In this document: positions 26,490 through 58,532 of the stretch, one piece after another
Numbering within the stretch: the stretch's first letter is position 1
Layout of the letters: every line of letters begins with the position of its first letter
Assembly: GCF_031180965.1 (NCBI RefSeq)
Contig: NZ_JAPSLH010000011.1
Coordinates: 1 to 64,000 of the forward strand
Direction of reading: 5' to 3'
DNA length: 64,000 nucleotides
DNA from: Chelativorans sp.
Lineage (GTDB): Bacteria; Pseudomonadota; Alphaproteobacteria; Rhizobiales; Rhizobiaceae
The notes under the pieces: generated by a model
The model's input: the letters and a program-made list of their open reading frames with translations, nothing else
Database searches by the model: none
What the model was told of the DNA's origin: nothing
Made by a program: the position numbers and the translations under genes

Positions 26490-27497
26490 ATGAGATCGGA
26501 TCTGGCGGAACAGAGCCGGCCGCATGCGATTGTCTACGGGGTGATAAAAGAGCTGTTGCTGACCAATGCTGAGACGGAGGAGATCCGAATCTCGGTCGGG
26601 GCGGTGGCGCGGCTATTTTCTGTCAGCCGCTCGCCGGCCGAGCGGGCACTCAACATGCTGGCGCGGGAGCGCCTGTTGGAGAAGCGGGCCAACGGCAAGT
26701 TCGCCCGTCCACCCCTCTCGCCGAACGGAGAGCCACGGATACTGGATGTCGAAGATCTCGTGCGCGAGCCGCAAAACGAGATTGCCGGCATTGGACGCCA
26801 GCGCGGCTCCTGGTTGCACCTCTACGACCAGGTAGCTCAGACCGTCGTCGGCGTGACAGCCTTCGGGTCCTACAGAATCGTGGAATCGGCGATGGCCAAG
26901 CATTTCAACGTCAGCAGAACCATCACCAACGATGTTCTGCTGCGGCTCGAGGAGCGCGGGCTCATCACCCGCGGGCCGCGCGGGAGGTGGCTGGTGGAGC
27001 AACTCAGCCAGCAGCAACTCGCCAATATTTATCAGTTGCGGCGGACACTCGAGCCGGTAGCGCTGATCGAGTCCGCGCCGGAACTGGATAAACAGTTCCT
27101 CCAGGCAGCGCGCGCCCGCATCGATAGTGCGCTTGGCGCGGAGGGTCAGCTCACGCGCAAGCAGGCGAACGAGATCGAGCGGGATCTCCATACCACGAGC
27201 CTTCGGCACTGCAGGAATGGACGGCTGCTCGGCGTTATCCGCAATTGCCAGGTTCTGCGCATCGCACAGCTTTACATGCCGAACCAGTCGGCTTCGAAAG
27301 AGGAACGGACAGAGTATCTTGGCGAGCATCGCCTCGTCATCGAGGCACTTGAAAAAGGTGCGGCTCGCCTTGCGGCCGAGGCACTGGTTTTTCACCTGGA
27401 GGCGTCGCTGCGCCGGGCCTCCTACCGGCTGGAACTGGCATCGCAAGCGACACCGCCCGAGGTGCCGCCTTTTCTGGTTCCCGCGGATGCGGAATAA
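26490..27497 (+). CDS. GntR-type regulator with two winged-helix domains and an FCD-like C-domain (paralogue A)
   Basis: wHTH-1 'ISVGAVARLFSVSRSPAERALNMLARERLLEKRANGKF'; wHTH-2 'RIVESAMAKHFNVSRTITNDVLLRLEERGLITRGPRGRWLVEQLS'; FCD 'YQLRRTLEPVALIESAP...EHRLVIEALEKG'. Confidence 0.9.
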   Translation: MRSDLAEQSRPHAIVYGVIKELLLTNAETEEIRISVGAVARLFSVSRSPAERALNMLARERLLEKRANGKFARPPLSPNGEPRILDVEDLVREPQNEIAGIGRQRGSWLHLYDQVAQTVVGVTAFGSYRIVESAMAKHFNVSRTITNDVLLRLEERGLITRGPRGRWLVEQLSQQQLANIYQLRRTLEPVALIESAPELDKQFLQAARARIDSALGAEGQLTRKQANEIERDLHTTSLRHCRNGRLLGVIRNCQVLRIAQLYMPNQSASKEERTEYLGEHRLVIEALEKGAARLAAEALVFHLEASLRRASYRLELASQATPPEVPPFLVPADAE

Positions 27498-27516
27498 GGA
27501 ACAGCGCCGTCGGACG

Positions 27517-28380
27517 CTAAGAGAGGACTTTCCTATCCGCAAAGAGCCTTTGCAGATTGCCGCCGAAGAGGAGGCCGCGTTCGGCCTCCGAGAGGAACCT
27601 GTAGTGCTGCTGTACAACTTCGAGGGCCTGCGGATACGACATAGCGCGGGTGACGACCGGAAAATCCGAGCCCCAGATCAACCTTTCCGGCCCGAAGGCG
27701 CTGTAAAACTCGCGGGCAAGCCATTCCTGATCTGCATAGGGAAAGGCGCCGGAGGGGTCGGTATGGGCGAAGCCGGAAATCTTGAGGAAGATGTTCGGCA
27801 GCCGCGCTGCGGCAAGCACCGCGAAAAGTCCCGTTTCGGCGTTCTGCGCCCCTATCCTGATGCCTCCCATATGATGGAGTAGAACAGGGAGCGAGGCATA
27901 CCGTTCTGCGACCGAGAGCAGTGCCGTGAGATGACGCGACATGGCAGCAATGCTTGCGATGAGGCCAAGCTCGGCAGCCGTGGCGAAGAGCTCCGTTCCC
28001 ACGGCATCCGCCAGCCATTCGGCATCCTCATCCTCATCGAGATAATGAGTGAAGCCGGCAACTCGGAAGCGTTCCACCGCTACGCGCAGCCTCGCTCCTG
28101 CGCCGGGCATGCGATGCTCGGGTGTCCAGCGCGAATCGATGTCCGCAAAAGGAATGAGGCGGCCGGGATATTTTTCCGCCTCCGCCGCCACATAGGCATT
28201 GTTGTCGTCATTGCCGTTGAGCCGAGCGCAGATCACGACCGCACGCGCGATCCCGGCCTGGTCCATTTCCTTCACGAGCTGTTCGGCCCTGCCTTGGCTC
28301 TCGGGACTGGAGGCGCCCGGCCACGGCCAGCGATGCCACGCGTGGACATGACCGTCTACCATGATGATGGCGCCTGTCAT
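27517..28380 (-). CDS. amidohydrolase_2 family (COG3618-like; candidate sugar lactonase)
   Basis: 'MVDGHVHAWH...VLLHHMGGIRIG...RLIWGSDFPVVTR...LLFGGNLQRLF'. Confidence 0.85.
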   Translation of the reverse strand: MTGAIIMVDGHVHAWHRWPWPGASSPESQGRAEQLVKEMDQAGIARAVVICARLNGNDDNNAYVAAEAEKYPGRLIPFADIDSRWTPEHRMPGAGARLRVAVERFRVAGFTHYLDEDEDAEWLADAVGTELFATAAELGLIASIAAMSRHLTALLSVAERYASLPVLLHHMGGIRIGAQNAETGLFAVLAAARLPNIFLKISGFAHTDPSGAFPYADQEWLAREFYSAFGPERLIWGSDFPVVTRAMSYPQALEVVQQHYRFLSEAERGLLFGGNLQRLFADRKVLS

Positions 28381-29429
28381 TCGGATTTGCCGGCGGGCGT
28401 CGGAGCGTCCGGATGGAGCAGCCCGCGTGACTTGAGGTCGAGCCAGAAGTCAAGCGGAACGGGATGGTGCATCAGCACCCGGTTGCGCTCAACCTCCACC
28501 GCCGACACCGCACCTGCCACCACGGACGCCACTGCGGGATGGCCCAGCGGGAACTGTAGCGCTGCAGCAGCAAGAGGCACATCATACTCTCCGCATACAG
28601 CCTCTATGCTACGCACGCGGCCAAGAACTTCCGGCGGTGCTGGCCGGTAGTTATACTGCGCGTTTTCAACCGAGCCGGTCGCCAGAATGCCGGAATTGAA
28701 GGGCGCAGCAACCAGAAGGCTGATCTTTCTTTGCGCGCAGAGCGGCAAAAGCTTCTCGATCGCGTCCTGCTCAAGCAAAGTGTAGCGCCCGGCAAGCATG
28801 ATGCAGTCGAGTTCACCGTGTTCCGCGAAGTCGAGGCAGGTCTGTACCTCGTTGACGCCGATTCCTATGGCGGCGACCACGCCTTCAGAGCGTAGCCTGC
28901 ATAGCGCCGGGTAGGCGCCATCAAGAGCCTCCCGCAAGCGGGCCGGGAAAGCGTCGCCATGTGTCCAGCGGTCGATGTCGTGAATGAGCGCGATGTCGAT
29001 CCGCGCCAGGCCGAGCCGTTGCAGGCTGTCTTCTATGGAGCGCATGGTGCCGGCATAGGAGTAGTCGAAGACCGGCTCGAACTCGAGCCCACCCTTGAAC
29101 GGCCTCGGTCCCTGGTCCGCAGCCCTGCGCGGCCGCAGCAGCCGCCCGACCTTGGTGGAAAACACACATTCTGATCGCGGGCCCTGCCGCAGAAAGCGGC
29201 CGACCCGATGTTCGGCCAATCCATAGCCGTAAAATGGGGCTGTATCGAAATAACGGATTCCCGATTGGAAAGCGGCCTCGAGCGTCTCTTCCGCCGCGGC
29301 TTCGGGCACGAGCATCTTGTGCTCGCCCAGCGGCGCCGTGCCGAAGCCGAACGCCGTCACTTCGAGATCCGAGGAGCCGAGCCGCCGCCTTCGCTGGCTT
29401 CCGCTCGGCTCCGTCTGAGGCTCATCCAT
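28377..29429 (-). CDS. aldo/keto reductase resembling L-fucose (D-threo-aldose 1-) dehydrogenase
   Basis: 'RRLGSSDLEVTAFGFGTAPLGE...GIRYFDTAPFYGYGLAEHRVGRFLR...LLAGRYTLLEQ...AAPFNSGILATG...YNYRPAPPEVL'. Confidence 0.85.
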   Translation of the reverse strand: MDEPQTEPSGSQRRRRLGSSDLEVTAFGFGTAPLGEHKMLVPEAAAEETLEAAFQSGIRYFDTAPFYGYGLAEHRVGRFLRQGPRSECVFSTKVGRLLRPRRAADQGPRPFKGGLEFEPVFDYSYAGTMRSIEDSLQRLGLARIDIALIHDIDRWTHGDAFPARLREALDGAYPALCRLRSEGVVAAIGIGVNEVQTCLDFAEHGELDCIMLAGRYTLLEQDAIEKLLPLCAQRKISLLVAAPFNSGILATGSVENAQYNYRPAPPEVLGRVRSIEAVCGEYDVPLAAAALQFPLGHPAVASVVAGAVSAVEVERNRVLMHHPVPLDFWLDLKSRGLLHPDAPTPAGKSE

Positions 29430-29480
29430 GTGCTCTATCAGACCTAATAATGTGCGCGAAGTCCATTTCCAGGACGGATC

Positions 29481-30761
29481 CTAGCCGGCGGACAGCACCC
29501 GATCCGCTTCCGCAAACAGTGCGCGCGCACCTTCCTGGGGTGAGGACTGCCCGAAACCGACCTCCTCGCTGATCCGCTTCAGGGTGGCGTTCATCTCCGT
29601 CGCCCCTTCCGGTGGCGCCGGCGGCATCGGGCCGCCGACAGGACCAACGAGCTCAAGATACTCGGCCATCTTGCGGCTGTCCTCATCGAGCTTCGGAATG
29701 AGCAGCTCACGGATTTTCGCGGAAGCGGGCATGCCGCGCTCGACTCCTAGAACGAGAGCCGCTTCGGGATCCCGGACGAAGAAATTGACGAAGTCGACCG
29801 CCAGGTCAGGATCAGCCGTCGTTCTTGCGATGCTGAAGAACTGAGCCGGCTGGAGGTAGATCCCATGCGACCGATCGCCGTTTTCCATCGGTGGCGGCAC
29901 CAGGGCGAGAGGGTCCTTGTTGACAGCCTGGTAGCCGACGAGCTGGTTCGCGTATCCGTAGGACATGGCCGCATGGCCGAGCGTGAGCATCGCCGTCTCG
30001 ATGTTCAGCTGGTCGAGCGCCTGCAGGTCGGCCGGGGGGCAGGCGCCGCTTTCGCGCAACCTGGCCCAGAGGGCGAACCAGTCGGCTGCATCCTCCTCCG
30101 AATAGCCCAGTTTGCCTTCCGCTGTGTAGAGGTCCTTGCCGCGCTGCCTTACCCAATTCTGCAGTGCGCCAACCACACCGCTGCCATCCTGGATGCCGTA
30201 GTGGTTCGGCCGCCCGGCCGCCCTTGTCACCTCGGCCGCCATGCGCTCGAACTCATCCCAGGTCGTATCGAGATTCGGCAATTCGACGCCCGCATCCTCC
30301 CATGACTTGGCATTGACGATCATGCCGAATGCGGCGTAGCCGAGGCTGACGCCATAGAACTTGCCATCGACCGTACCGGCATCGATCTGCGATTTGTCGA
30401 AGTCGCTGATGTCCAAGCCGTTGCCGACATACTCGTCAAGGGGCAGCAGGATGTCGCGTCGGGCATATTCCGAGATCGTGCTGTGGTTCTGCTGGACGAT
30501 GTCGGGAGCATTTCCACCGCTCACCTGCGTTGCCAGACGCGGCCAGTAATCGGCCCACCCCGCACCCTCGCCCTCGAAGACGACGCCTGTCTTCTTGCGA
30601 TAGAGTTCGCCGACGGCGAGCGTCCGTTCCGTCCGGTCGTTGGAGCCCCACCAGGCTCCGCGCAGACGCCGTTCCTGGCCGACAGCGGATGCGTGCGAAA
30701 ACGTAGGAAAAGCAATCGATGCAGCGCCCAGCTGCAGCAGGTTTCTGCGCGTCAGATGCAT
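29481..30761 (-). CDS. ABC transporter sugar-binding protein (SBP A1)
   Basis: 'RLRGAWWGSNDRTERTLAVGELYRKKTGVVFEGEGAGWADYWPRLATQVSGGNAPDIVQ'. Confidence 0.9.
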   Translation of the reverse strand: MHLTRRNLLQLGAASIAFPTFSHASAVGQERRLRGAWWGSNDRTERTLAVGELYRKKTGVVFEGEGAGWADYWPRLATQVSGGNAPDIVQQNHSTISEYARRDILLPLDEYVGNGLDISDFDKSQIDAGTVDGKFYGVSLGYAAFGMIVNAKSWEDAGVELPNLDTTWDEFERMAAEVTRAAGRPNHYGIQDGSGVVGALQNWVRQRGKDLYTAEGKLGYSEEDAADWFALWARLRESGACPPADLQALDQLNIETAMLTLGHAAMSYGYANQLVGYQAVNKDPLALVPPPMENGDRSHGIYLQPAQFFSIARTTADPDLAVDFVNFFVRDPEAALVLGVERGMPASAKIRELLIPKLDEDSRKMAEYLELVGPVGGPMPPAPPEGATEMNATLKRISEEVGFGQSSPQEGARALFAEADRVLSAG

Positions 30762-30827: not shown

Positions 30828-32111
30828 TCAGGTTCTGCCGAGAATGTCGGTCGCCTGCGCGACCAACGCCTCGCCGGCTTCTGCCGGTGTCAGCTGCCCG
30901 AACGCCACTTCCTCGCTGACGCGCTTGAGCGTGGCGTTGATTTCCGCCGCTCCGGCGGGCGCAGCTGGGGGCAACGGACCGGCGATGGGGCTTACGAGCG
31001 ACACGTATTCCGCCGCCCGGCGCTCCACCTCTCCGAGCTTGGCGGTCAGTGCTTCCCTCACCGCAGCGGAAGCGGGAATGCCCCGTTCAAGCCCGAGGAT
31101 CGATGCCGCCTCGTTGTCGCGCACGAAGAAATTGATAAAGGCCACGGCCTCGTCCGGGTAATCGGAGCCTGCCGCGACGCTGAAGAACTGCGAGGGTTTG
31201 ACGTAGATGCCGTTGGTCGGGTTGTCGCCCAGTTTCGGCATCGGCGCCGGCAGGATCGGATCCTGGTTGAGCGCCTGGAAGCCGACGAGTTGGTTCGCGG
31301 AGCCGAAAGAAGATGCCGAATGCCCGAGCGTCAGCATGGACGTCTCGATGCTCACCTGGTCGAGTGCCTGCAGGTCGGGTGTCACGCAGGCGCCGCGCTT
31401 CCGAAACTCTGCCCACATGGCGAACCACTCGCCGGCGTCTTTAGCGTCGTAGCCCAAGGTGCCGTCCGCATTGTAAAGATGTTTGCCCCGCTGGATGAGC
31501 CAGCTTTCGATGACAGCCTCGATGCCGCTCGAATCCTGGAGGCCGAAATAGTTCGGGCGGCCGAGCGCCTTGGTGACCTGTTCGCCCATCCGGCCGATAT
31601 CTTCCCAGGTGCTTTCCGCCGTGGGCAGTTCTACGCCAGCCTCCTCCCAGGCCTTGGCATTGACCATCATGCCATTGGCCGTGGTGCCGAGACTGACCGC
31701 ATAGAAGCGGCCGTCCACCATGCCGCCGTCGATCTGGCTGCGATCGAAATCGGAGAGGTCCAGCGCCTTGCCCAGGTAATCGTCGAGCGCTAGCAACACG
31801 CCGCGGCGGGCATATTCGCCAAGTGTGCTCAATTCCATCTGCATGATATCCGGCGGATTGCCGCCGCCGACCTGAGTGGCGAGCCGCGGCCAGTAGTCGG
31901 CCCAGCCTGCCCCCTCGCCCTCGAACACAATACCGGTCTTCTGCTTGTAGAGCTCACCTACTGAGAGCGTGCGCTTGCTGCGCTCCTGCGAACCCCACCA
32001 GGCGCCGCGGAGCCTGACTGCCTGTCCATGGGCGCTCCAGGGCAAGAGCATAGCACCTGCTATGGCTGCGCCGCCCTGGAGCAAGGTCCGCCGCGAAATG
32101 GTTTGTTGCAT
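30828..32111 (-). CDS. ABC transporter sugar-binding protein (SBP A2), paralogue of A1
   Basis: 'MQQTISRRTLLQGG...RLRGAWWGSQERSKRTLSVGELYKQKTGIVFEGEGAGWADYWPRLATQVGGGNPPDIMQ'. Confidence 0.9.
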   Translation of the reverse strand: MQQTISRRTLLQGGAAIAGAMLLPWSAHGQAVRLRGAWWGSQERSKRTLSVGELYKQKTGIVFEGEGAGWADYWPRLATQVGGGNPPDIMQMELSTLGEYARRGVLLALDDYLGKALDLSDFDRSQIDGGMVDGRFYAVSLGTTANGMMVNAKAWEEAGVELPTAESTWEDIGRMGEQVTKALGRPNYFGLQDSSGIEAVIESWLIQRGKHLYNADGTLGYDAKDAGEWFAMWAEFRKRGACVTPDLQALDQVSIETSMLTLGHSASSFGSANQLVGFQALNQDPILPAPMPKLGDNPTNGIYVKPSQFFSVAAGSDYPDEAVAFINFFVRDNEAASILGLERGIPASAAVREALTAKLGEVERRAAEYVSLVSPIAGPLPPAAPAGAAEINATLKRVSEEVAFGQLTPAEAGEALVAQATDILGRT

Positions 32112-32160: not shown

Positions 32161-33354
32161 TCATCCACGACCGGAAGACGTAGCCCTCTCCCTGCCGAAG
32201 CTCTTTCGGTCAACGGCGTGCGATCTGATGAATGCCCAGTTGTAGGCGACTCCCAAACCTGGGCCGGTCGGCACGGGAAACGTGCCGTCGCCCGCAACGC
32301 TCTCCAGCGCGTCGGCGTAGTCGCAGGCGTAATAGGGCGAGGTCCATCCATCGCCCGGCCCGACAAGGGAGAGCTCGTAGAAATTGGAATTGCGGGTGGC
32401 TGCCATGCAGTGGCGCTGGGCCGGACCGCAGCCGTGATACTCCACGTCCAGCCCCAAGGCTTCCGCAAAGCGCGCGATCTTGATAGCCCCTGTAATCCCC
32501 ATATCGTAATCGGGGTCGGCGCGGACGACGTCCGTGCCGCCGGCCAGGACAAAGTCCGCCTTCGGCTCCACCCCCCGGACGTGCTCTGTGATGAGGAGCG
32601 GCGTCTTGATGGACTCGCGAAGCTTGCGGTGCGCGAAGGCGGAGACACTGCTGTCGCGGAACGGGTCCTCGTACCAGTAGTAGCCGGCCTCGTCGCAAGC
32701 GCGTCCAACATAAAGGGCATCGGCGAAGGTGCGCAACTCGCAGGCAGGGTCGAGCATCAGCGTCATGCGGTCGCCGACCCTGCGGGCCACATGGAGGACG
32801 TTCTCGGCCTCCTCCCGGGCATTGCCCTCGTTCCAGCCATGGATCTTGAAAGCCCGATAGCCCAGATCGAAGCAGTGCTCCGCGAAATCGGCGTAGGCCT
32901 CCTTGCTGTCGAGGCGGCCTTCCCTGTCGCCATGAAAGGTGGAGGCATAGGCAGGCAGCCGGTTGCGATAGCCGCCGAGCAGCTTCGTGACGGAGCAGTC
33001 GTACTTCTTGCCCGCGAGATCCCAGAGAGCGACGTCGAGAGCGCCGTGACCCATATGGTCGAACTGACGGATTTCGCGCTTCAAATCATCATAAATCTGT
33101 TCACGCGCTTCCGCATCGCGCCCGATGAGGAAGGGGGCCAGATAGGCCGCCTGTTGGAAGGCGATCACGTTAGCGCCGCTGACATATTCGCCGACAAGCC
33201 CGTCGCTTGTCGCGATAGAGACTGCGAAGCGGCGCAGCACCCGCTTTTGCGGCGATACAGGATAGCGGGATGAACGATTTGCGACCGCCGCCAGATCAGC
33301 TTCGAAGGCAAAAAGCGTAAGCTCCACGCTCTCGATGATGCTCGTCTTCATCAT
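32161..33354 (-). CDS. enolase-superfamily (MR/MLE) sugar-acid dehydratase, copy A
   Basis: 'ALWDLAGKKY...FKIHGW...MLDPACELRTF...YWYEDPFRD...LLITEHVRG...VRADPDYDMGITGAIKIARFAEALGLDVEYHGCGPAQ'. Confidence 0.9.
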   Translation of the reverse strand: MMKTSIIESVELTLFAFEADLAAVANRSSRYPVSPQKRVLRRFAVSIATSDGLVGEYVSGANVIAFQQAAYLAPFLIGRDAEAREQIYDDLKREIRQFDHMGHGALDVALWDLAGKKYDCSVTKLLGGYRNRLPAYASTFHGDREGRLDSKEAYADFAEHCFDLGYRAFKIHGWNEGNAREEAENVLHVARRVGDRMTLMLDPACELRTFADALYVGRACDEAGYYWYEDPFRDSSVSAFAHRKLRESIKTPLLITEHVRGVEPKADFVLAGGTDVVRADPDYDMGITGAIKIARFAEALGLDVEYHGCGPAQRHCMAATRNSNFYELSLVGPGDGWTSPYYACDYADALESVAGDGTFPVPTGPGLGVAYNWAFIRSHAVDRKSFGRERATSSGRG

Positions 33355-34259
33355 TGCGATCCCGTACGGACGGAGAGAAGCCCGGCGGCCTCCGCATGCC
33401 GGAGCGCTATCTTCCTGCTCCAGGATCGGAGCGGCGGCGCAATGCGCGCATGCGCCGAGCCGATGATGCCCCTCGCGGCGAGCACCTCCTTGACGGCAAG
33501 GACCGACAGCGGGAGCGACTGCGCCTTGAAGACCAGGAAAGGCATCAGCTTCAGGTGCAAGGCACGCGCGCCTTCGCGGTCGCCCATGCGGTAGCGCCGG
33601 GTGATCTCGCGGAAGACGGCCGGCGCCTCGAAGGCAGGGATGACGCCCGTCACGCCGGCGTCGAGAAGGTCGAGATAGTGCAGCCCACCCGTTCCGCCGA
33701 AGAAGGTGAGGTGGCGACCGACATCCGTCGCCAGCAGATCCGAGACCGCCTGACCCGTATTGTGCCCCTCCAGTTTCGCGTAGCGTACATTGGGAGCCCT
33801 CTCCACGATGCGGATGATAGTCTCCGGCTGGAGCATGACGCCCAATTCGTTCGGCGCGTCCTGAAGCATGATCATTGCTCCGCGCGCAGCGCTTGCAACG
33901 GCGGTGAAATGCTCGACTTGCTGATCCGCGGTGAGACCTGCAACGGCGGGAGGGGCGACCATCAGGAGGTCTGCGCCGAAGGACGCGGCCTCGGCGGCAA
34001 GCCGGCATGCCGTGGGAGTATCGTCGGCGCTCACACCCACCAGGGTTGGACACCGTCCGCCCACCGCGCGGACTGCGGCTTCTACGACCTGTGACCGCTC
34101 CTCCGGTGAGAGGCAGCGGACTTCTGCTGCCAATCCCATGATCGCGAGGCCATCAACGCCTTGCGCAAGGGCATCGTCGACCAGCCGGGAGATGGCTGGG
34201 AAATCGACATCGCCGCCGCTGAATACCGTCGGCAGCATGGGGAAAACACCATCAAACAA
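33351..34259 (-). CDS. dihydrodipicolinate synthase/aldolase (DapA) family, copy A
   Basis: 'GVFPMLPTVFSGGDVDFPAISRLVDDALAQGVDGLAIMGLAAE...AKLEG'; 4-nt overlap with the enolase gene. Confidence 0.9.
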   Translation of the reverse strand: MFDGVFPMLPTVFSGGDVDFPAISRLVDDALAQGVDGLAIMGLAAEVRCLSPEERSQVVEAAVRAVGGRCPTLVGVSADDTPTACRLAAEAASFGADLLMVAPPAVAGLTADQQVEHFTAVASAARGAMIMLQDAPNELGVMLQPETIIRIVERAPNVRYAKLEGHNTGQAVSDLLATDVGRHLTFFGGTGGLHYLDLLDAGVTGVIPAFEAPAVFREITRRYRMGDREGARALHLKLMPFLVFKAQSLPLSVLAVKEVLAARGIIGSAHARIAPPLRSWSRKIALRHAEAAGLLSVRTGSQ

Positions 34260-34320
34260 AGTTCACTCCGAGTCCGCACGTTCCAAGGCGGGCGATACTG
34301 AACACTTTAGAACTATGTAA

Positions 34321-34407
34321 TTTTGCACGCAATGCTACTATCGGAAATATCTCGCTGGGGCTCTCCTGCCTCCGTCTAGTGATCCAATTGAGTATATTTG
34401 CACGCAA
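34321..34407. promoter_or_regulatory. two TTTGCACGCAA boxes (34322-34332 and 34397-34407) upstream of the module A DapA gene
   Basis: Exact 11-mer occurs twice, 75 bp apart; TTGC-AC-GCAA core is palindromic. Confidence 0.55.
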
Positions 34408-34497
34408 AGCGGGGAATGCGCCGCCGACTATCCCTCAAGAAGAGCTGATCCGGTGGAAAGTTTTTGTTCGCAGGAATTCTGAGCTCCCCCACCACAC

Positions 34498-34680: not shown

Positions 34681-34723
34681 GACCGCTTCCCGCCATGCCA
34701 TTTTCTTGCTCCTTCCTCGCCGC

Positions 34724-42698: not shown

Positions 42699-43643
42699 CT
42701 ACCCAGCGGCTGCGCAGCGGAAGCCCATATGGCCGGTGCTGGAATCGGGCGTATTCGTGGTCCGAGCCGACAGGCGGTAGCGGGAACAGTAGCTTTCATG
42801 ACAAAGATAGGAGCCGCCGCGGATCACGCGGGTCGCACTCTCCGGCGGTCCTTTTGGGTTGACGCGGCTGTCGGGTACATCCAACAAATGCCAATCGGTG
42901 CTCCACCCGTCCGCGCACCATTCCCAGACATTGCCCACCACGTTATAAAGACCATAGCCGTTTGCGCTGAAGGCCTTCACCGGAGCCGTGGTAAGGAAAC
43001 CGTCGTCGCGGGTGTTCACGCGTGGAAAATCCCCCTGCCACACATTGCAGCGGTGACGCCCGCCTGGCGCAAGCTCGTCGCCCCAGGGAAAGAGCGTCTG
43101 GTCGAGGCCGCCGCGCGCAGCCTTTTCCCACTCCGCTTCGGTCGGCAGCCGTTTACCCGCCCAAGCCGCATAGGTGGCGGCATCGTTCCACGAAACGTGC
43201 ACGACCGGATGGTCTCCGCGATCTCTCACACTTGAACCTGGGCCTTCGGGTGCCTGCCAGGAGGCTCCCCGCACGGCCAGCCACCAGGGCGCCTGCGGCA
43301 CGCTTCCTTCAATCACATAGCGCCGCGCTTTGGGGTGCACGGCGGCGTAAAACACATACGACCAGCCATAGCGCTCGGCATCGGTAGCGTAACCCGTTTC
43401 GCGCGCAAATTGCGCGAAGCGACGGTTCGTCACCGCCGTGGCATCGATCAGGAATTCCGACACCGCCACGGTGCGTACCGGCCCCTCGCCATCGGCCGGA
43501 TAGGCTTTCGGGTCGTCGCTCCCCATTCGAAAGGGCCCTGCGGGTATACGCACCATTCCGGCACGATCTGCAACGGTGCGCGACGGCATCGGCACGCATC
43601 CGGCTTGCCGCGAGGGAGCGGAGGGCGAGCAACACTCTTTCAT
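42699..43643 (-). CDS. formylglycine-generating enzyme (sulfatase-modifying factor)
   Basis: 'MVRIPAGPFRMGSDDPKAYPADGEGPVRTVAVSEFLIDATAVTNRRFAQF...VIRGGSYLCHESYCSRYRLSARTTNTPDSSTGHMGFRCAA' retains the Cys pair and surrounding FGE motif. Confidence 0.93.
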   Translation of the reverse strand: MKECCSPSAPSRQAGCVPMPSRTVADRAGMVRIPAGPFRMGSDDPKAYPADGEGPVRTVAVSEFLIDATAVTNRRFAQFARETGYATDAERYGWSYVFYAAVHPKARRYVIEGSVPQAPWWLAVRGASWQAPEGPGSSVRDRGDHPVVHVSWNDAATYAAWAGKRLPTEAEWEKAARGGLDQTLFPWGDELAPGGRHRCNVWQGDFPRVNTRDDGFLTTAPVKAFSANGYGLYNVVGNVWEWCADGWSTDWHLLDVPDSRVNPKGPPESATRVIRGGSYLCHESYCSRYRLSARTTNTPDSSTGHMGFRCAAAG

Positions 43644-43663: not shown

Positions 43664-45040
43664 TCAGATGGAAGTCGCTAGGATTGTTCGCTGCAAGGTC
43701 CGGCTTGCCATCCTTTCCTGCCAACCAGCGTCCTCGACAGTCACAATCTTCGGGGCTGCCTCACCGGCCTCAGCCATGGCCGCGGCCAGTAAAGAGCGTA
43801 GCTCCTCCCGTATGCCGGAATGTGCGCGTGAACGGATCAGGTTTTCGAGCTCGTGCGGATCGGAATGAAGATCGTAAAGACGCGCCTCCACGTAAACCTG
43901 CGCGCCGGGAACCGCGTAGCCATCCAGTTCCGGCGCCTCGACCTCATATTTCCATCGCGCGGTCCTGAGCGCGCGGCCGACATGATGTTCGCTGATCTGG
44001 ATGAGCACGCCTTCCCGTCCTTTCCTCTCGCCACGAAGAGCGGGAAGGAGGGATTTTCCCTGCATGGCCGCAGGCACCGTAACGCCGGCCGCATCGAGCA
44101 GGGTCGGCGGGAGGTCGATCAGGCTGACCAGCCCGTCATAAGTGCCCAACCCGTCGAACGCTGGGCCATGGAACAGCGTCGGCACCCGGATAGACGCTTC
44201 ATGGCTAGAGCGCTTGTACTCGTCGTTGCGGGTCTTGAAGTGGCAGCCATGGTCGGAGGTGAAGAGGACGATCGTGTCGTTGAGAATGCCAAGGCTGTGC
44301 AGCGCCTCAATGATGCGGCCGAGAGCCTCGTCCAGTCGCTTGACCATCCCGAGGTAACCCGGCAGATGCTCCAGGGTTGATCCGCCGAGTTGGGCGAGGT
44401 CAGTGGGGACGACCAGCTTGTCGCGCAGGCTTTCCTCGTAGCCGAGTGGGGCTGGGTAGCTGTCGGTGCTGTTCTGGTGATGCGGCTCCAGGAAAGACAG
44501 GAACAGGAAGAAGGGCCGATCCTGGCGCCGGTCGATATAGCGAATCGCGGCGTCGGCCAGCGCATCAACCCTATAGCCCGGCAGCTTCTGCCGGTGGCCG
44601 GACTCGTCGAACAGCACCGTGTCGAAAGGGCCAGAAACGAATTCGAGCAGGTTGGCAGCGAGCCAATCCTGGTACCCCCCCCGTTCCTCCGGCGGCACCG
44701 GCTCGTTCTCGGCCAGGTGCCATTTGCCGATATAGCCCGTCGCATATCCCGCATCGCCGAAGAGGGTCGCAAGTGTGGGCAGTGTGCGGGGAAGCGGGAT
44801 GCCGTTCTTGTAGCAGCCGCTCGTCGTTGGATAGAGGCCGGTCTGGAAAGCCGAGCGCGCCGGCGCGCAGACGGGCTGGCAGGTAAAGGAATTTTTGATG
44901 AAGGCGCCGCTCTGCGCCAGCCGGTCGAAATTTGGCGTAAGCCCCATCGGATTGCCGTGGGCGCCGACGGTGTCCCAGCGCTGCTGGTCGGTCAGGACGA
45001 CGATGACATTCGGCTTTTTTCCAGTCACGAGGTCTTCCAT
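43664..45040 (-). CDS. type I sulfatase (Cys-type CxPxR), no evident signal peptide
   Basis: 'KPNVIVVLTDQQRWDTVGAHGNPMGLTPNFDRLA...VCAPARSAFQTGLYPT...YIGKWHL...SDHG'. Confidence 0.95.
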   Translation of the reverse strand: MEDLVTGKKPNVIVVLTDQQRWDTVGAHGNPMGLTPNFDRLAQSGAFIKNSFTCQPVCAPARSAFQTGLYPTTSGCYKNGIPLPRTLPTLATLFGDAGYATGYIGKWHLAENEPVPPEERGGYQDWLAANLLEFVSGPFDTVLFDESGHRQKLPGYRVDALADAAIRYIDRRQDRPFFLFLSFLEPHHQNSTDSYPAPLGYEESLRDKLVVPTDLAQLGGSTLEHLPGYLGMVKRLDEALGRIIEALHSLGILNDTIVLFTSDHGCHFKTRNDEYKRSSHEASIRVPTLFHGPAFDGLGTYDGLVSLIDLPPTLLDAAGVTVPAAMQGKSLLPALRGERKGREGVLIQISEHHVGRALRTARWKYEVEAPELDGYAVPGAQVYVEARLYDLHSDPHELENLIRSRAHSGIREELRSLLAAAMAEAGEAAPKIVTVEDAGWQERMASRTLQRTILATSI

Positions 45041-45060: not shown

Positions 45061-45921
45061 TCAGCCCTTCACCGCGCCTTGCAAGAGGCCGCGAGTGAAA
45101 TAGCGCTGGCCAAAGAAGAAGATGACCAGGATAGGCAGTGCCACCAGGCCGGCGGCGGCGCCAACGCGATTGAATTCGAGGGTGAAGTAGTCGACGAAGT
45201 TGACGAGGCCCAGTGTCACAGTCTTCTTTTCCGGCGATTCCAGCAGGATCGAGGCGAAGGCGAATTCGGCCCAGGAGCCGACGAAGTGCCACAGGGCTGC
45301 CGTCACCAGGGAGGGCACGGCGAGAGGCAGGATCACCCTGATCATGGTCTGGAGACGGCTTGCACCGTCCACCATCGCCGCTTCCTCGAGCTCCATGGGG
45401 ATTTCCCGCAGGCCGGCGGTGATGATCCAAGTGGCGAAGGGCAGGCCGAAGGCAGAATAGATAAGGATGAGGGCCCAGGGGGAATCGTGCAGGCCGAGGA
45501 AGACCATCAAACGATAGGTGGGCAGCAGAAGCACCGCACCTTGGAACATGCGGCTCACAAGCAGCCCGCCCAGGATCAGGTCGCGGCCCGGGAAGGGGAT
45601 GCGCGCGAAGGCGTAGCCCGCAATTGATGCCAGGACGACGACGATCACTGTCGAGGTGACGGATATGAAGAAGCTGTTGGCGATGAGCCGACGCCAATCG
45701 AGCAATTGGCTCGACTGCGTGCCGGCTGTGAGAAGATCCCGGTAGGCGCCGAGCGTGAACTCATCAGGCAAAATGGTGGCTGGCAACCGCGCAAGCTCGC
45801 TGGCAGGCTTGAAGGAAGCGAGGATCAACCACAGGATCGGAAAGGTGATGTAAAGCGCGATAACGCCGGCGCAGAGTGCGAAGAGCGTTGTTGCGATGGG
45901 CTCCCTCGTCACCGTCGTCAC
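45061..45921 (-). CDS. carbohydrate ABC transporter permease (MalG-type), likely GTG start
   Basis: 'LEEAAMVDGASRLQTMIRVILPLAVPSLVTAALW'; start uncertain (GTG 45921 or 45912). Confidence 0.9.
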   Translation of the reverse strand: MTTVTREPIATTLFALCAGVIALYITFPILWLILASFKPASELARLPATILPDEFTLGAYRDLLTAGTQSSQLLDWRRLIANSFFISVTSTVIVVVLASIAGYAFARIPFPGRDLILGGLLVSRMFQGAVLLLPTYRLMVFLGLHDSPWALILIYSAFGLPFATWIITAGLREIPMELEEAAMVDGASRLQTMIRVILPLAVPSLVTAALWHFVGSWAEFAFASILLESPEKKTVTLGLVNFVDYFTLEFNRVGAAAGLVALPILVIFFFGQRYFTRGLLQGAVKG

Positions 45922-46895
45922 TCCTTTCGCGACCAGGAGCGCCGCATCACCGTGAGATAGAGCGTCACGAGCGCTGCAAGGCACAGGAGGTTGACGACGG
46001 ACATGGCGGACGCCACACCCCAATTGAAGAATTCAAAACTCTGCTGGTAGATATAGGTGGACATGATCTGGCTGGAATTTGCGGGGCCGCCGCCGGTCAT
46101 GACCCAGGGCAGCGTGAACTCCGCCGTCATCCAGATCATCGAGATCACCGTCACCGCGGTGAAGGGGAAGGCGATCTGCGGCATCACGATATACCGGAAA
46201 GTCTCCCAGCGATTCGCTCCGTCGATGCGGCTCGCCTCAATGAGCTCGCTCGGCACGTTGCGGATCGCGGCCGTCAGCACGAGTGTGATGAGCGGAACCT
46301 TGCGCCAGATGACGACGGCCACTAGCACCCACATGACGAAGTTGGGATCCCCAAGGAAAGACATCGGCCGTTCGGTGATGCCCAGCGCCTGCAAGGTCTG
46401 GCCGACGATGCCGACCTGCCCGTGCAGCATCCATTTCCAGGCCATGGCAGTCACCACGTCTGGAAGGATCCACGGCAGGAGGATCAGCGCGCGCAGCACG
46501 GTCGTCACGCGGCTTTCGATGGCGAGGAAGGTGGCGAGCGCGAGTCCCAGGACGACGCAGCCCAGCGTGCCGCCGAGGATCCAGATGGCGGTGTTCCTGA
46601 GCACCTGGAGGAACATCGGGTCGGCCAGCAGTGTCTTGAAGTTGACAAGCGTACCGAACGCCACTTCCTGCCCCATGATGAAGCGGGTGAAGCTCAGACG
46701 GAAGACGTCATAGGCAGGCCCGAGGACGAAACCGACCACCGCGAAGACCACGGGAAGGATCATCGCATAGGCAAGCCACCGATCGTGCCGCCGCAGCGGA
46801 TCCGGTGCGGCGCGGCTCCTACCAGCAAAACCAGTGCGTCGCCGCACCCCACCGTAGGGTGCGGCCGCGGGCCCCGTGGTGGCTCTCTCAGTCAA
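45918..46895 (-). CDS. carbohydrate ABC transporter permease (MalF-type)
   Basis: 'LIEASRIDGANRWETFRYIVMPQIAFPFTAVTV'. Confidence 0.92.
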   Translation of the reverse strand: MTERATTGPAAAPYGGVRRRTGFAGRSRAAPDPLRRHDRWLAYAMILPVVFAVVGFVLGPAYDVFRLSFTRFIMGQEVAFGTLVNFKTLLADPMFLQVLRNTAIWILGGTLGCVVLGLALATFLAIESRVTTVLRALILLPWILPDVVTAMAWKWMLHGQVGIVGQTLQALGITERPMSFLGDPNFVMWVLVAVVIWRKVPLITLVLTAAIRNVPSELIEASRIDGANRWETFRYIVMPQIAFPFTAVTVISMIWMTAEFTLPWVMTGGGPANSSQIMSTYIYQQSFEFFNWGVASAMSVVNLLCLAALVTLYLTVMRRSWSRKE

Positions 46896-46921
46896 CTCTC
46901 ACATCCAGAGGCTGGCTATGG

Positions 46922-48238
46922 CTATTTGAGCAGGTCAATCTGCTGCTGCGCTGCCGCCGCTGCATCGGCGAGCGCCTGCTCGGGTGATTTACGCTCAAGG
47001 ATTGCTTCCTGGATTGCAGCGCCCAAGGCTGTCTCCACCTGCGTCACGCCGACGAAACGGGGAATCGGCTCTGCGCCCGCAAAAAGCGTCCCGCCCTTAT
47101 AGGCTTCCACCCAGCTTGGCCATTTCTGCGCAAGCTCCGGTGTATCCCACGCCGCCTTGGCGGCCGGGATGCGCGAGTATTCGGGATCGCCGTCCCACAT
47201 CAGGAGCTGCTCGTTCTGCGACCAGAAATCCACATAGGAAAGCGCCGCCTCAGGATTTTGCGTGCTCGCCGAGATGAAGAGGATGGCGGAGGAATCCATC
47301 AATGCGTTCACCGGTGCCTGGCCGCCGCTGGGCTTGTCCGGCCGAGGAAAGGGCGCACCGGTCCAGTTCAGCGTCTCCGGTGTTCCCCACGGCGTGTTGA
47401 GCCAGGAGAAGGCGATCCACATGGCCACGCGACCCTGCGCGAAGAGCTGCGCCGTATCGCGGAAATTCGTCTCAGCCATGGACGCGGCCGACGGCGTCGA
47501 TAAGTCCTTCACGAGGTCGACATAGAACTGCAGGGCGTCGACAACGCCGCGGTCGTCGAGCGTCACCTTGCCCGTCGCGGGATCATAGACGCGTCCGCCA
47601 TTCATGTAGGCGACGGACTCGAAGATGTTGATGTCGCCGGGCGCGGTTGTTGCCGGGAAGGCGAAGCCCGGCCGGTCCGGCTTGGTGAGTTTCTTGGCGT
47701 AATCGCGCAGCTCCGACCAAGTGCGCGGTGGCCCATCAAAGTCCGCTTCCTTCAGTGCATCGATATTGTAGGCTAGGAACGGCGCCATATCGACATAGAC
47801 CGGCAGCCCGTACAGCTTGCCGTCGAAATTGCCGTTGGTAAGAATCTGCGGGACGATCCGTTCCTGCCACCCCGCGAGCTTGTCGCCCGCCAAGTCGTTG
47901 AGCGGCTGGATGGCCTTGAATGTGGCGAGCTCGGGCACGTCTTGGCCGAAGCCAACGATCACATCCGGGATCTGCCCCGTCTGCAGCGCGGCCTGCATTT
48001 TCTGCCGCCGCATCTGGCCGTTAAAATAGGAGTACTCCAGTTTGACGTCAGGATTGGCCTTGAGGAAAACCTCGTTCTGCTTTGCCCAGAACTCGACTTC
48101 GCGCGGCGTTCCACCGAACTTCCAGACAGCGATCGTTCCGGACGCTGCCCTGGCAGGCCGGGACAATCCGAGCGGCGCGGTGCCCGCGACAGCGAGACCG
48201 GCAGCGCCGGACATGAAATGGCGACGGGTGACCCTCAT
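46922..48238 (-). CDS. ABC transporter sugar-binding protein (SBP C)
   Basis: 'MRVTRRHFMSGAAGLAVAGTAPLGLSRPARAASGTIAVWKFGGTPREVEFWAKQNEVFLKANPDVKLEYSYFNGQMRRQKM'; Tat-like RR signal. Confidence 0.9.
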   Translation of the reverse strand: MRVTRRHFMSGAAGLAVAGTAPLGLSRPARAASGTIAVWKFGGTPREVEFWAKQNEVFLKANPDVKLEYSYFNGQMRRQKMQAALQTGQIPDVIVGFGQDVPELATFKAIQPLNDLAGDKLAGWQERIVPQILTNGNFDGKLYGLPVYVDMAPFLAYNIDALKEADFDGPPRTWSELRDYAKKLTKPDRPGFAFPATTAPGDINIFESVAYMNGGRVYDPATGKVTLDDRGVVDALQFYVDLVKDLSTPSAASMAETNFRDTAQLFAQGRVAMWIAFSWLNTPWGTPETLNWTGAPFPRPDKPSGGQAPVNALMDSSAILFISASTQNPEAALSYVDFWSQNEQLLMWDGDPEYSRIPAAKAAWDTPELAQKWPSWVEAYKGGTLFAGAEPIPRFVGVTQVETALGAAIQEAILERKSPEQALADAAAAAQQQIDLLK

Positions 48239-48278
48239 GCAGCACTCCTCCCTCACTGCTGGTTCCATGATGACGGAT

Positions 48279-48292
48279 GATATACGTATGTC
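48279..48292. promoter_or_regulatory. LacI-type operator candidate GATATACGTATGTC
   Basis: Near-perfect 14-bp palindrome with central CG in the divergent SBP C/sulfatase promoter; LacI gene adjacent. Confidence 0.55.
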
Positions 48293-48327
48293 AATACTGC
48301 CATGATGAGAATCGCTGGAGGCAAGGA

Positions 48328-49797
48328 ATGAAAGCAGACGGAAGCCTGGAGGCGGTGCAAAAGGGACAGCAGGATGTGCGCCGGCCGGACATCGTGCTCA
48401 TCCTGTCCGACGAGCACGCGCCACATTTCTCATCCATCTATGGAAACGACTTTGTCGCGACGCCTAACCTTGCCCGGCTGGCCGGCGAGGGCATGACCTT
48501 TGATGCCGCCTATTGCTCCTCTCCCTTGTGCGTTCCCTCGCGCATGTCGTTCATGACCGGGCGCTACCCCTCCCGCATCGGCTGCTTCGACAATGGCTCA
48601 CCCCTGCCGAGCGATATACCGACGCTTGCCCATGTGCTGAGCGCTTGCGGCTATGAGACCGTGCTCATCGGCAAGATGCACTTCATCGGGCCTGATCAAC
48701 TCCATGGCTTTGAACGGCGGCCGGTCGATGATGCTCGCGTGTGCGGCAACGCGATCGAGGCGCCCGACTGGAGCGAGCCGCTGGCGACCATCTCCGATGC
48801 GCGCAGCCGTCTCACAACCGCCGGGATCGGGCATACGCCGCATCTCGAACAGGATGAGGATGTGCTCCATCATGCGCTGCAATTTATTGAGGAGCGTGCC
48901 GCCGCGGGGCCCGAGCGGCGGCCCGTTTTCCTATGCATCTCCTTCAACGCCCCGCATTTTCCGCTGAAGGTGCCGGAGCACTATTTCGCCCGCTATAAAC
49001 ACGCGAACATTCCCCTGCCGCAGGTAACGCGAGATGAGCTGGATGCACAACATCCGTTTCACAAGCGCCTGAGGCGCTATTTCGATATTGAGGAGGTGGA
49101 TGAGGCGGTGGTGGCGAAAGCGCGCGCAGCCTATTTTGGGCTCGTTGCGCATCTGGACGACATGATAGGCGCCATCCTCAATGCCATGGATGGTGCGGCG
49201 CCGAGAGGATTCGACCCGCTGCTTTGCTATGCATCGGATCACGGTGAAATGCTGGGCGAGCACGGCCTGTGGTGGAAATGCTGCCTGTTCGAGGAATCGG
49301 TGCGTGTTCCGCTCATCATCCGCTGGCCGGGCGTGGTAGAAGGTGGGGAACGCTGCGCTGTTCCGGTTTCCCTGCTCGATCTTTCCGTGACCTTTGCCGA
49401 CCTTGCCGGAGCCAGCCAGAAACCGGCAACGCGGGCGTTTGTCGAGGAAGCCGACGGAGAGAGCTTGAAGCCCACGCTTGCAGGCGGCACAATCCGCCCT
49501 GAGCGCGCCGTTGTCTCAGAATATCTGGCCCATGCCGCTGAACGACCGATCCGCATGATCCGCCAAGGCTCCTGGAAATACGTCTACTACCATGGGGAGC
49601 CGGATGAACTCTTCCATCTGGATGACGATCCGCGCGAGCGGACCAATCTCGCCGAGCGACCGGACCTTGCCGGGATGAAAGCTGCGCTTCGGGGGCTGCT
49701 TCTCGAAGGCTGGTCTCCCGATGAGCTTGACCGGCGTATCCGCCAGAGCCAACGCGAGCGCCGGCTGATCGCAGCCGCAGAGGGCGCGCGGGCATGA
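48328..49797 (+). CDS. type I sulfatase (Cys-type CxPSR), choline-sulfatase-like, no evident signal peptide
   Basis: 'RRPDIVLILSDEHAPHFSSIYGNDFVATPNLARLA...PLCVPSRMSFMTGRYPSRIG...IGKMHFIGPDQLHGFERR'. Confidence 0.94.
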   Translation: MKADGSLEAVQKGQQDVRRPDIVLILSDEHAPHFSSIYGNDFVATPNLARLAGEGMTFDAAYCSSPLCVPSRMSFMTGRYPSRIGCFDNGSPLPSDIPTLAHVLSACGYETVLIGKMHFIGPDQLHGFERRPVDDARVCGNAIEAPDWSEPLATISDARSRLTTAGIGHTPHLEQDEDVLHHALQFIEERAAAGPERRPVFLCISFNAPHFPLKVPEHYFARYKHANIPLPQVTRDELDAQHPFHKRLRRYFDIEEVDEAVVAKARAAYFGLVAHLDDMIGAILNAMDGAAPRGFDPLLCYASDHGEMLGEHGLWWKCCLFEESVRVPLIIRWPGVVEGGERCAVPVSLLDLSVTFADLAGASQKPATRAFVEEADGESLKPTLAGGTIRPERAVVSEYLAHAAERPIRMIRQGSWKYVYYHGEPDELFHLDDDPRERTNLAERPDLAGMKAALRGLLLEGWSPDELDRRIRQSQRERRLIAAAEGARA

Positions 49798-50837
49798 GCC
49801 TGGACGAGGTCAGTCTCGCCAAGGACCGGCAGCGCAAGTCGGTGACGCTCAAGGACGTGTCGGAAGCGGCCGGCGTGTCACTCATCACGGTCTCGCGCGC
49901 CCTGCGCCAGCCCGACACAGTGACCCCCGCCACCCGCCAACGCGTGCACGAGGCGATCAACGCCACGGGCTATGTGCCCAACCTCATGGCGCGGGCGTTG
50001 GTATCGAGCCGGTCCAACATCGTCGGGCTGGCTGTCCCAACCATCAGCGCCTCGCTCTTCGCTGATCTTGCCGAACTCCTGGCCAAGGTGCTGCAGGAGC
50101 ACGGAAAGCATCTTCTGCTTGGCATCTATGACTGGTCGCCGGAGAAGGAATACGACGTCGTGACAACCTTCATGGGGCGGCAGGCGGACGCGCTGGTGCT
50201 GACCGGATACTCCCATTCGGCCGAGCTCAGGCAGCGGTTGGAGCGCTTCGACGGCCCGATCGTGGAGATGGGCAGCATCCGGGCGAAGCCGATCGACATG
50301 GGGGTCGGCTTCGATAATTTCGCAGCCGCCGCCGAGATGACGCGGCACCTGATCGATCGCGGCTATCGGAAGATTGCCCTCGTGCATGGCTCGACAGAGA
50401 ACAACGATCAGGCGGCGGAGCGCTACCAGGCGTTCCGCACGGTGATGCGCGAAGCGGGATTTTCGGTAGACGATGGTCACATCATTTCGGTGCCAACGCC
50501 CACCACCATGGAGCAGGGGCATGCGGCGATGTTCGAACTGCTTGACAGCCCGCGCCCGCCGGACGCGGTGTTCTTCCAAACGGACAATCTCGCCCATGGC
50601 GCGATGATGGCCTGCCTCTCGCGCGGCGTTGCCGTGCCAGCCGGGGTGGCGATCGCCGGCTTCGGCGATCTTGCTATGTCAGCCCTCCTGCCGGTACCGC
50701 TTACCACCGTAAAAGCGCGCCTTGAAGCGCATGGCCGTGAAGCGGCTTCGCTTATTCTTACACGATTGCGGGGCGAGAGGCCCATTTCACCAGTACACGA
50801 CGTTGGATACGAGTTGCTGATCCGGGAGAGCACATGA
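49794..50837 (+). CDS. LacI-family transcriptional regulator
   Basis: 'VTLKDVSEAAGVSLITVSRALRQPDTVTPATRQRVHEAINATGYVPNLMARALVSSRSNIVGL'. Confidence 0.95.
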   Translation: MSLDEVSLAKDRQRKSVTLKDVSEAAGVSLITVSRALRQPDTVTPATRQRVHEAINATGYVPNLMARALVSSRSNIVGLAVPTISASLFADLAELLAKVLQEHGKHLLLGIYDWSPEKEYDVVTTFMGRQADALVLTGYSHSAELRQRLERFDGPIVEMGSIRAKPIDMGVGFDNFAAAAEMTRHLIDRGYRKIALVHGSTENNDQAAERYQAFRTVMREAGFSVDDGHIISVPTPTTMEQGHAAMFELLDSPRPPDAVFFQTDNLAHGAMMACLSRGVAVPAGVAIAGFGDLAMSALLPVPLTTVKARLEAHGREAASLILTRLRGERPISPVHDVGYELLIREST

Positions 50838-58530: not shown

Positions 58531-58532
58531 CG

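Follow-up and report, generated by a model that had tools for sequence, protein, structure and literature searches.

A 24 kb locus of Chelativorans sp. joining a sulfatase-importer unit to a duplicated enolase/DapA-family unit, and its possible role in the use of sulfated 6-deoxyhexoses

The window (the whole 64,000-nucleotide stretch analysed, from the soil-type bacterium Chelativorans sp.) contains, at 26490-50837, a 24 kb block of 21 genes (Table 1), all of them real and annotated nearly as in the preliminary description. Its gene list was recovered completely: two GntR regulators, an Amidohydro_2 protein, an AKR, five CUT1-type solute-binding proteins (SBPs), two permease pairs, two MR/MLE enolases, two DHDPS-family proteins, two Cys-type sulfatases, one FGE, and one LacI regulator. 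The block is nearly uninterrupted, as had been claimed, with a coding fraction of 0.948 (~95%) and several neighbouring genes overlapping by 4 bp or 1 bp. It is, however, two adjoining units and not one. Unit 1 (26.5-42.4 kb) comprises the AKR, a COG3618 lactonase-like protein (AH), two enolase/DapA-family pairs, four SBPs, one permease pair, and both GntR regulators. In unit 2 (42.7-50.8 kb), an SBP5-permeases-sulfatase-FGE string diverges from a sulfatase-LacI string, with a LacI operator between them. The 24 kb block contains no gene for an ABC ATPase, which must therefore be supplied in trans. Paralogous pairs were observed for GntR1/2 (54% identity), SBP1/2 (60%), SBP3/4 (57%), ENO1/2 (69%), and DAP1/2 (49%); since ENO1/2 and DAP1/2 are sister pairs, the unit-1 core is duplicated, in agreement with the duplicated modules described earlier. 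SBP2 is also ~50% identical to an SBP encoded on S. meliloti pSymB. A DNA-level plasmid search for relatives of the whole block returned short matches only.

Table 1 Features of the 24 kb block (window coordinates)
Feature	Coordinates	Strand	Basis
GntR1	26490..27497	+	two winged-helix domains + FCD; PF00392 (2 stretches), PF07729
AH, COG3618-type amidohydrolase, putative sugar lactonase	27517..28380	-	PF04909; motifs GHVHAW, HHMGG, WGSDFP
AKR, putative aldose 1-dehydrogenase	28377..29429	-	PF00248
SBP1, CUT1 solute-binding protein	29481..30761	-	PF13416/PF01547
SBP2	30828..32111	-	paralogue of SBP1
ENO1, MR-type enolase-superfamily acid-sugar dehydratase, KxH	32161..33351	-	PF13378/PF02746; catalytic residues
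DAP1, DHDPS/NAL-family protein, dehydratase-type active site	33351..34259	-	active-site residues
DAP1 regulatory region	34260..34723	.	two TTTGCACGCAA(A/T) repeats, at 34322 and 34397
SBP3	34724..35995	-	PF01547
CUT1 permease I	36048..36902	-	PF00528
CUT1 permease J	36899..37855	-	PF00528
SBP4	37852..39108	-	PF01547
ENO2, MR-type acid-sugar dehydratase, sister of ENO1	39126..40304	-	sister support 100/98
DAP2, sister of DAP1, same Gln/Lys/Glu signature	40301..41242	-	sister support 98/95
GntR2/DAP2 shared promoter region	41243..41422	.	near match TTTGGGCGCAAT at 41264
GntR2	41423..42409	+	two winged helices + FCD
FGE (formylglycine-generating enzyme)	42699..43643	-	PF03781 271 bits; CHESYC pair
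SULF1, Cys-type sulfatase	43664..45040	-	PF00884 203 bits, PF16347
CUT1 permease Q	45061..45921	-	PF00528; 85% to Microvirga
CUT1 permease R	45918..46895	-	78% to Microvirga
SBP5	46922..48268	-	78% Microvirga, 64% Jannaschia and G111; probable start 48238
SULF2, Cys-type sulfatase, BetC-like core without BetC tail	48277..49797	+	PF00884; probable start 48328
LacI operator (predicted) TGATATACGTATGTCA	48278..48293	.	conserved in four genomes
LacI-family regulator	49794..50837	+	PF00356/PF13377; 71% Microvirga, 52-53% Jannaschia and G111

Both enolase-superfamily proteins carry the metal ligands D/E/E, the KxH motif, and the Asp-His dyad of the MR subgroup, and the catalytic residues K, H, D, E, E, D, and H are invariant across 15 relatives. 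Neither reached the equivalog cut-offs for L-rhamnonate, galactonate, or talarate dehydratase (best 80.5 bits against 500; 71.9 against 393 for a rhamnonate dehydratase model), and no L-fuconate dehydratase model was found among their equivalog-model matches. By sequence and fold, the nearest structures are 4hch/1rvk from Agrobacterium (deposited as D-glucarate dehydratase/AGR_L_2751), an enzyme that we take to be the galactarate dehydratase III of Groninger-Poe 2014. The MR fold and the KxHxW and HG motifs are shared with it; however, the identity of 27-28% is too low for substrate assignment. Reading a function from relatives of the enolases was abandoned, as the neighbours varied among the 237 loci found (SAR116, Burkholderiales, haloarchaea). 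In none of the 80 loci fetched from these 237 did a DapA-family, SBP, or AH gene like those of the window lie beside the enolase relative, and one had an AKR at 42%. When unit-1 clusters were sought in close relatives, four others among 121 genomes had the enolase, and in none of these did close orthologues of the DAP or SBP genes adjoin it.

The aldolase role previously claimed for the DapA-family pair is contradicted by the active-site residues. When DAP1 and DAP2 were examined for the features of DapA-type and KDG aldolases, the catalytic Tyr was absent, with Gln in its place (LQDAP), and the GXXG motif was replaced by GLAA/GLAG, the second Gly being kept by DAP2 alone. The residues resemble those of L-KDA dehydratase (KdaD), in which Gln likewise replaces the aldolase Tyr and the Schiff-base Lys is followed two residues later by Glu; equivalents of KdaD Gln143 and Glu173 are present (Q133/K162/E164 in DAP1, the same in DAP2). 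However, KdaD is distant in sequence (the best profile match, yet only 113 bits), its second catalytic Glu (Glu200) is missing from DAP1/2, which have GGTGG/GGKGG at the Glu199-Glu200 position, and the pair forms a separate branch of the tree outside the KdaD clade. No close DAP1 match was found in 385 genomes of the class. Of 298 genomes of the order, 45 gave matches to the Gln/KxE branch, whose members probably often carry a wrong annotation as dihydrodipicolinate synthase or aldolase. A predicted DAP1 structure was dropped for its low confidence (pLDDT 62).

The preliminary description had proposed the import, desulfation, and oxidation of a sulfated fucose-like sugar; for L-fucose, the oxidative steps would be those of fuconolactonase, fuconate dehydratase, and an aldolase. 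The AKR and COG3618 families do include fucose enzymes, AH is weakly similar to fuconolactonase, and an AKR-AH-FucU/RbsD gene string is present in Roseomonas. The nearest solved relatives of the AKR, placed in that family by its fold (PF00248) only, are L-galactose dehydrogenases. AH scored 62 bits with the NCBIfam equivalog model for L-fucono-1,5-lactonase, below the cut-off of 400, and neither dehydratase reached an equivalog cut-off or matched a fuconate dehydratase family; the enolases lie nearest to a GalrD/GlucD-type structure, at 27-28%, the DapA-family residues are not aldolase-like, and the genes that accompany relatives of unit 2 are rhamnose genes. With cut-offs missed this widely, fucose was rejected as a substrate read from family names, and we consider the fucose proposal improbable.

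SULF1 and SULF2 combine the PF00884 domain with the CxPxR signature of type I (Cys) sulfatases (CAPAR and CVPSR, within CAPARSAFQTG and CVPSRMSFMTG), and by inspection neither shows a hydrophobic N-terminus or signal peptide, which suggests the cytosolic location that desulfation inside the cell would require. The FGE has the FGE-sulfatase domain and the active-site CxxxxC cysteine pair (CHESYC at residue 281). Since no second FGE was found in the genome, where PF00884 gave six matches, its position was dropped as a sign of a dedicated system. Ribosome-binding sites place the probable starts of SULF2 and SBP5 at 48328 and 48238, respectively; the LacI operator falls within the longer SULF2 reading frame.

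SULF2 resembles choline sulfatase, and unit 2 might scavenge sulfate (or choline sulfate) to supply the cell with sulfur or an osmolyte instead of carbon, the more so as genes resembling a sulfate ABC transporter set are found ~28 kb upstream of the FGE. Its sulfatase core, with CxPxR, aligns with BetC (6fny, PMC5870055) across 463 residues, but the score of 402.9 bits missed the BetC NCBIfam equivalog cut-off of 433.45, and SULF2 has no counterpart of the conserved C-terminal tail with which BetC closes its choline pocket. The alignment stops at chain residue 471/515 with 8 residues left in SULF2, so that Leu499, Asp500, Leu502, and Arg507 of the tail are absent; the choline-sulfate reading was rejected on this loss. 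Considering also the LacI control, the CUT1 sugar-type transporter, and the relatives that link unit 2 to glycosidases and sugar dehydrogenases, scavenging in general appears very improbable.

The LacI operator sequence was observed in the window, Microvirga, another genome of the order (G111), and Jannaschia. In the 4.37 Mb host genome it was matched exactly at 48278 alone, and no such site lies near unit 1. Conversely, TTTGCACGCAA-type repeats occur at unit-1 promoters and are absent from the SULF2/SBP5 promoter. An operator or regulator shared across the 24 kb, as expected of one co-regulated pathway, was not found in the window, and in this genome nothing shows both units acting on one sugar.

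The units may accordingly be two unrelated catabolic islands, neighbours by chance, with unit 1 acting on sugars or sugar acids that SBP1-4 import and unit 2 on a sulfated glycoside, the sugar of which would be broken down by other genes of the host. The differing regulators and operators fit this explanation, as do the many unrelated contexts of the enolase family and the other sugar routes of the host: it has other non-phosphorylative gene sets (C31; SDR 59% identical to that of G111, AH 29%) and, on C50, a phosphorylative rhamnose-type operon. So does the distribution of the sulfatase genes. Plasmid NZ_CP016620 of Microvirga ossetica has the same divergent LacI-SULF2/SBP5-permease layout at 71-85% identity, with FGE and SULF1 near, but linked to galactosidases and an alpha-L-rhamnosidase, the latter immediately downstream of the SBP5-R-Q orthologues, and not to AKR, AH, ENO, or DAP genes; in Martelella and Rhizobium, sulfatase-1 importers occur with unit 1 absent.

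G111 stands against the chance explanation. Orthologues of SULF2 (59%), LacI (53%), SBP5 (64%), and both permeases (69/71%) sit there among a COG3618 protein, an SDR, a Gfo/Idh protein, two MR-type enolases, and a DapA-family protein; a single string with 4-bp overlaps runs from the COG3618 gene through SULF2, SDR, and Gfo to LacI, divergent to SBP-permease-MR-MR-DapA. A Jannaschia plasmid carries a G111-type cluster without the sulfatase, with genes for L-rhamnose mutarotase, FAH, and UgpC, adjoining a rhamnose ABC transporter operon. These two clusters indicate that the importer neighbourhood with such enzymes recurs. Independent distribution of the sulfatase and enolase/DapA genes, named earlier as evidence against a joint pathway, was found in part, in Microvirga, Martelella, and Rhizobium. 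Overall, chance adjacency has an appreciable probability, well short of even. The G111 arrangement supports a putative order of desulfation followed by oxidation, although its enzymes are not orthologous to those of unit 1, and it upholds the claimed logic of desulfation with non-phosphorylative oxidation, a route that we consider plausible. The four-family kit AKR-DapA-MR-AH also recurs, at low identity, in a further genome (G127).

From gene neighbourhoods, L-rhamnose would be favoured over fucose as the sugar, given the rhamnosidase, the rhamnose mutarotase, and a further host sulfatase, which adjoins the rhamnose-type operon of this genome and comes after a string of ABC-RhaM-FGGY kinase genes. 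Our leading model, that at least one sugar desulfated by unit 2 enters a unit-1-type oxidative route, we place just below an even chance. Gene content, the duplication, the conserved operator, the active-site residues, and the co-clustering in G111 are observations; its substrates, reaction order, and coupling of the units we infer as follows. SBP5 and permeases R/Q, with an ATPase in trans, would import a sulfated saccharide, most likely containing an L-rhamnose-type 6-deoxyhexose, from which SULF1 and SULF2, activated by the FGE, would strip sulfate in the cytosol (LacI regulon). In unit 1 (GntR regulon), the AKR would oxidise the aldose at C1 to a lactone, the COG3618 protein would open it to the aldonate, and ENO1/ENO2 would dehydrate this to a 2-keto-3-deoxy acid. 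DAP1/DAP2 would perform a second, Weimberg-like dehydration through a Schiff base with no aldolase cleavage, and SBPs 1-4 would separately import related sugars or sugar acids. The G111 and Jannaschia clusters, the shared LacI operator, the Microvirga rhamnosidase, the host RhaM-string sulfatase, the DAP and ENO residues, and the G127 kit argue for this model; the separate regulators and operators, unit 2 standing alone in Microvirga, the host C31 set or rhamnose-type operon that could take the sugar, and the missing second catalytic Glu of L-KDA dehydratase argue against it.

The locus was compared with known systems. In the available text on SAR202 bacteria (PMC10444878), parallel non-phosphorylative kits of COG0667/COG1028, COG3618, COG4948, and COG0329 are proposed to act concertedly, fucose and rhamnose, as well as the lactones and acids derived from them, enhance growth, and genomes with the kits also carry sulfatase paralogues. 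The dehydrogenase, COG3618, enolase-superfamily dehydratase, and DapA family are common to these kits and the window; in contrast, that text reports no sulfatase in the SAR202 sugar operons, whereas in the window a duplicated pair stands together with CUT1 importers and with a sulfatase unit under LacI control. We tentatively propose, as possible and short of probable, an undescribed alphaproteobacterial cytosolic pathway for sulfated 6-deoxyhexoses, with desulfation followed by phosphorylation-free oxidation, in which a LacI-controlled sulfatase/CUT1 importer recruits differing dehydrogenase-lactonase-enolase kits and which ends in an uncharacterised DapA-family dehydratase branch. Sulfated 6-deoxysugars are components of hard-to-degrade algal polysaccharides, and the specialists described as consuming sulfated fucose and rhamnose belong to the Verrucomicrobiota and use microcompartments (PMC8857213). 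If true, alphaproteobacterial import, intracellular desulfation, and phosphorylation-free oxidation would be a solution different from those microcompartments.

Every gene named in the preliminary description was present in the block. It is part of contig C10 in a genome of 4.37 Mb (95% complete), is 94.8% coding and consists of two gene strings; no ABC ATPase gene was found within it. In unit 1, which holds two MR-type enolases (ENO1, ENO2), two DapA-family proteins (DAP1, DAP2) and four CUT1 solute-binding proteins (SBP1-4), GntR2 lies divergently at the head of the string and GntR1 convergently at the tail. The cellular location of the unit 2 sulfatases, SULF1 and SULF2, was judged by inspection alone. 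The same window contains an apparent sulfate ABC transporter, a transporter-like region with a possible frameshift, and genes whose translations look like ectoine/hydroxyectoine catabolism and uptake.

Coordinates and gene order of the block, its candidate operators and other loci
Feature	Position	Strand	Content
Block	26490-50837		units 1 and 2
Unit 1	26.5-42.4 kb	minus	DAP2-ENO2-SBP4-J-I-SBP3-(464 bp)-DAP1-ENO1-SBP2-SBP1-AKR-AH
Unit 2	42.7-50.8 kb	minus	FGE-SULF1-Q-R-SBP5 (map order), divergent from SULF2-LacI
Unit 1 candidate operator	34322, 34397; 41264 (near match)		TTTGCACGCAA repeats
Unit 2 LacI site	48278		TGAYAYNCGNRTRTCA
Apparent sulfate transporter	10649-15121		Rrf2-type regulator, SBP, CysT, CysW, CysA
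Apparently split transporter-like region	15155-16971		overlapping frames 15155-15994 and 15925-16971
Ectoine-type genes	57505-63843	minus	EutE, EutD, EutC, EutB, EutA, EhuD/EhuC-like permeases
G111 (L176; genome of the same taxonomic order), arm 1			COG3618 protein-SULF2 (59%)-SDR-Gfo/Idh-LacI (53%)
G111 (L176), divergent arm 2			SBP5 (64%)-R (69%)-Q (71%)-MR enolase-MR enolase-DapA-family protein
Host rhamnose-type operon (L124, G000:C50:98000-112000)	823-8802		CUT2-type ABC transporter-RhaM-FGGY kinase, then another Cys-type sulfatase (CMPAR)
Another non-phosphorylative-looking host cluster (L202)	G000:C31:25000-44900		SDR (59% identity to the G111 SDR), COG3618 protein, LacI, MR enolases, Gfo/Idh protein
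Paraburkholderia plasmid string (L135)	7827-14696		LacI, enolase (58% to ENO2), MFS transporter, two dehydrogenase-like genes, Gln/KxE DapA-family protein

ENO1 and ENO2 (DEHYDRATASES) belong to the MR subgroup, with the KxH motif, D/E/E metal ligands and Asp-His dyad unchanged in 15 relatives. The closest solved structures by both profile and fold were 1rvk and 4hch, both from Agrobacterium (27-28% identity; confident model, pLDDT 86); these matches support an acid-sugar dehydratase function without pointing to any one substrate. This enolase family has a wide distribution (237 loci, haloarchaea among them). Enolases on haloarchaeal plasmids (L130, L132, L136) are 53-55% identical to ENO2, and one copy stands in an SDR-COG3618-enolase string, an archaeal instance of this kit.

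The best solved relative of DAP1 and DAP2 by profile was L-2-keto-3-deoxyarabonate dehydratase, in which Gln143 replaces the aldolase Tyr and Glu173, not conserved in other DHDPS/NAL enzymes, acts as the base (PMC9795676; see also PMC13398020). In both proteins Gln likewise takes the place of this Tyr, the Schiff-base Lys is present with a Glu two residues after it, and the aldolase-type GXXG in its GTTGE/GSGGE form is absent. These residues are of dehydratase type and contradict the earlier assignment of the pair as aldolases; the branch is probably dehydratase-like. The second Glu (Glu200) is missing, so neither DAP1 nor DAP2 is a plain L-KDA dehydratase. Of 298 genomes of the order, 45 gave matches in a profile search, and all 29 protein sequences examined had Gln and KxE; two resemble true KdaD, at least 11 adjoin an MR enolase and two adjoin an AKR of 46-47% identity. 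This broad branch (L137-L165), often next to MR enolases and CUT1 permeases, falls into three or more motif classes (KEETLP, KxEG and KHEDWP).

ENO1/ENO2 were sisters in a tree of 36 proteins (support 100/98), DAP1/DAP2 were sisters in a separate tree (98/95), and GntR1/2 (54% identity), SBP1/2 (60%) and SBP3/4 (57%) form further paralogous pairs; as far as sampled, the sequences therefore place the duplication of the GntR-DAP-ENO core within this lineage. The two copies adjoin different SBP pairs.

Unit 2 is kept on a Microvirga ossetica plasmid (SULF2 73%, LacI 71%, SBP5 78%, permeases 78% and 85%), where an α-L-rhamnosidase directly follows the permeases, then FGE, with SULF1 (72%) and α- and β-galactosidases nearby. 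SULF1 homologues in Martelella and Rhizobium have different CUT1 importers and LacI genes as neighbors; the Rhizobium locus also has an FGE. In G111, the first enolase was nearest to L-rhamnonate dehydratase (217 bits, below the 393 cut-off), the second has KxH and 33% identity to ENO1, and the DapA-family protein carries Gln/KxE. A Jannaschia plasmid has this cluster minus the sulfatase, plus UgpC, L-rhamnose mutarotase and an FAH protein, adjoining a rhamnose ABC transporter operon. Gene names in these four genera follow public-record annotation; neighbours at unannotated loci were named by BLAST to window proteins and Pfam/NCBIfam scans, and genome counts are samples, not censuses.

The preliminary description favored a fucose-like substrate. 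For unit 2, comparative clues point instead to L-rhamnose, because of the rhamnosidase, the mutarotase and the rhamnonate-dehydratase-nearest enolase of G111 and Jannaschia, and because a host sulfatase gene follows a rhamnose-type string (L124; RhaM by profile match, kinase and ABC names from translations), linking the two in the same genome. In unit 1, AKR is nearest to L-galactose dehydrogenases and AH matches fuconolactonase weakly; neither names a substrate.

That units 1 and 2 belong together, we hold at slightly under an even chance. In G111 the genes around the sulfatase encode a dehydrogenase, a lactonase-like protein, dehydratases and a DapA-family protein, so the importer-sulfatase unit accompanies such a kit at least once; Jannaschia provides a second case for the importer, not fully independent since its kit is orthologous. 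An AKR-DapA-MR-AH set recurs in G127 (L154/L193; like L158, characterized by BLAST/Pfam/NCBIfam matches alone). These arrangements weigh against the units being mere neighbors, an alternative that we consider somewhat less likely than coupling. In favor of that alternative, their regulators differ, the Microvirga locus has unit 2 with no unit 1 genes, host contig C31 has alternative sugar-oxidation genes, and the candidate operators are separate. In each of four loci (window, Microvirga, G111, Jannaschia), a LacI operator close to TGAYAYNCGNRTRTCA separates the divergently oriented genes; the only exact match in the host genome is the unit 2 site, whereas unit 1 has the candidate TTTGCACGCAA repeats (10 such matches in the window, 2.7 expected). 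For the coupled arrangement, the logic of the kit has a published parallel in SAR202: COG0667/1028, COG3618, COG4948 and COG0329 proteins are proposed there to act concertedly in cells that respond to fucose and rhamnose (PMC10444878).
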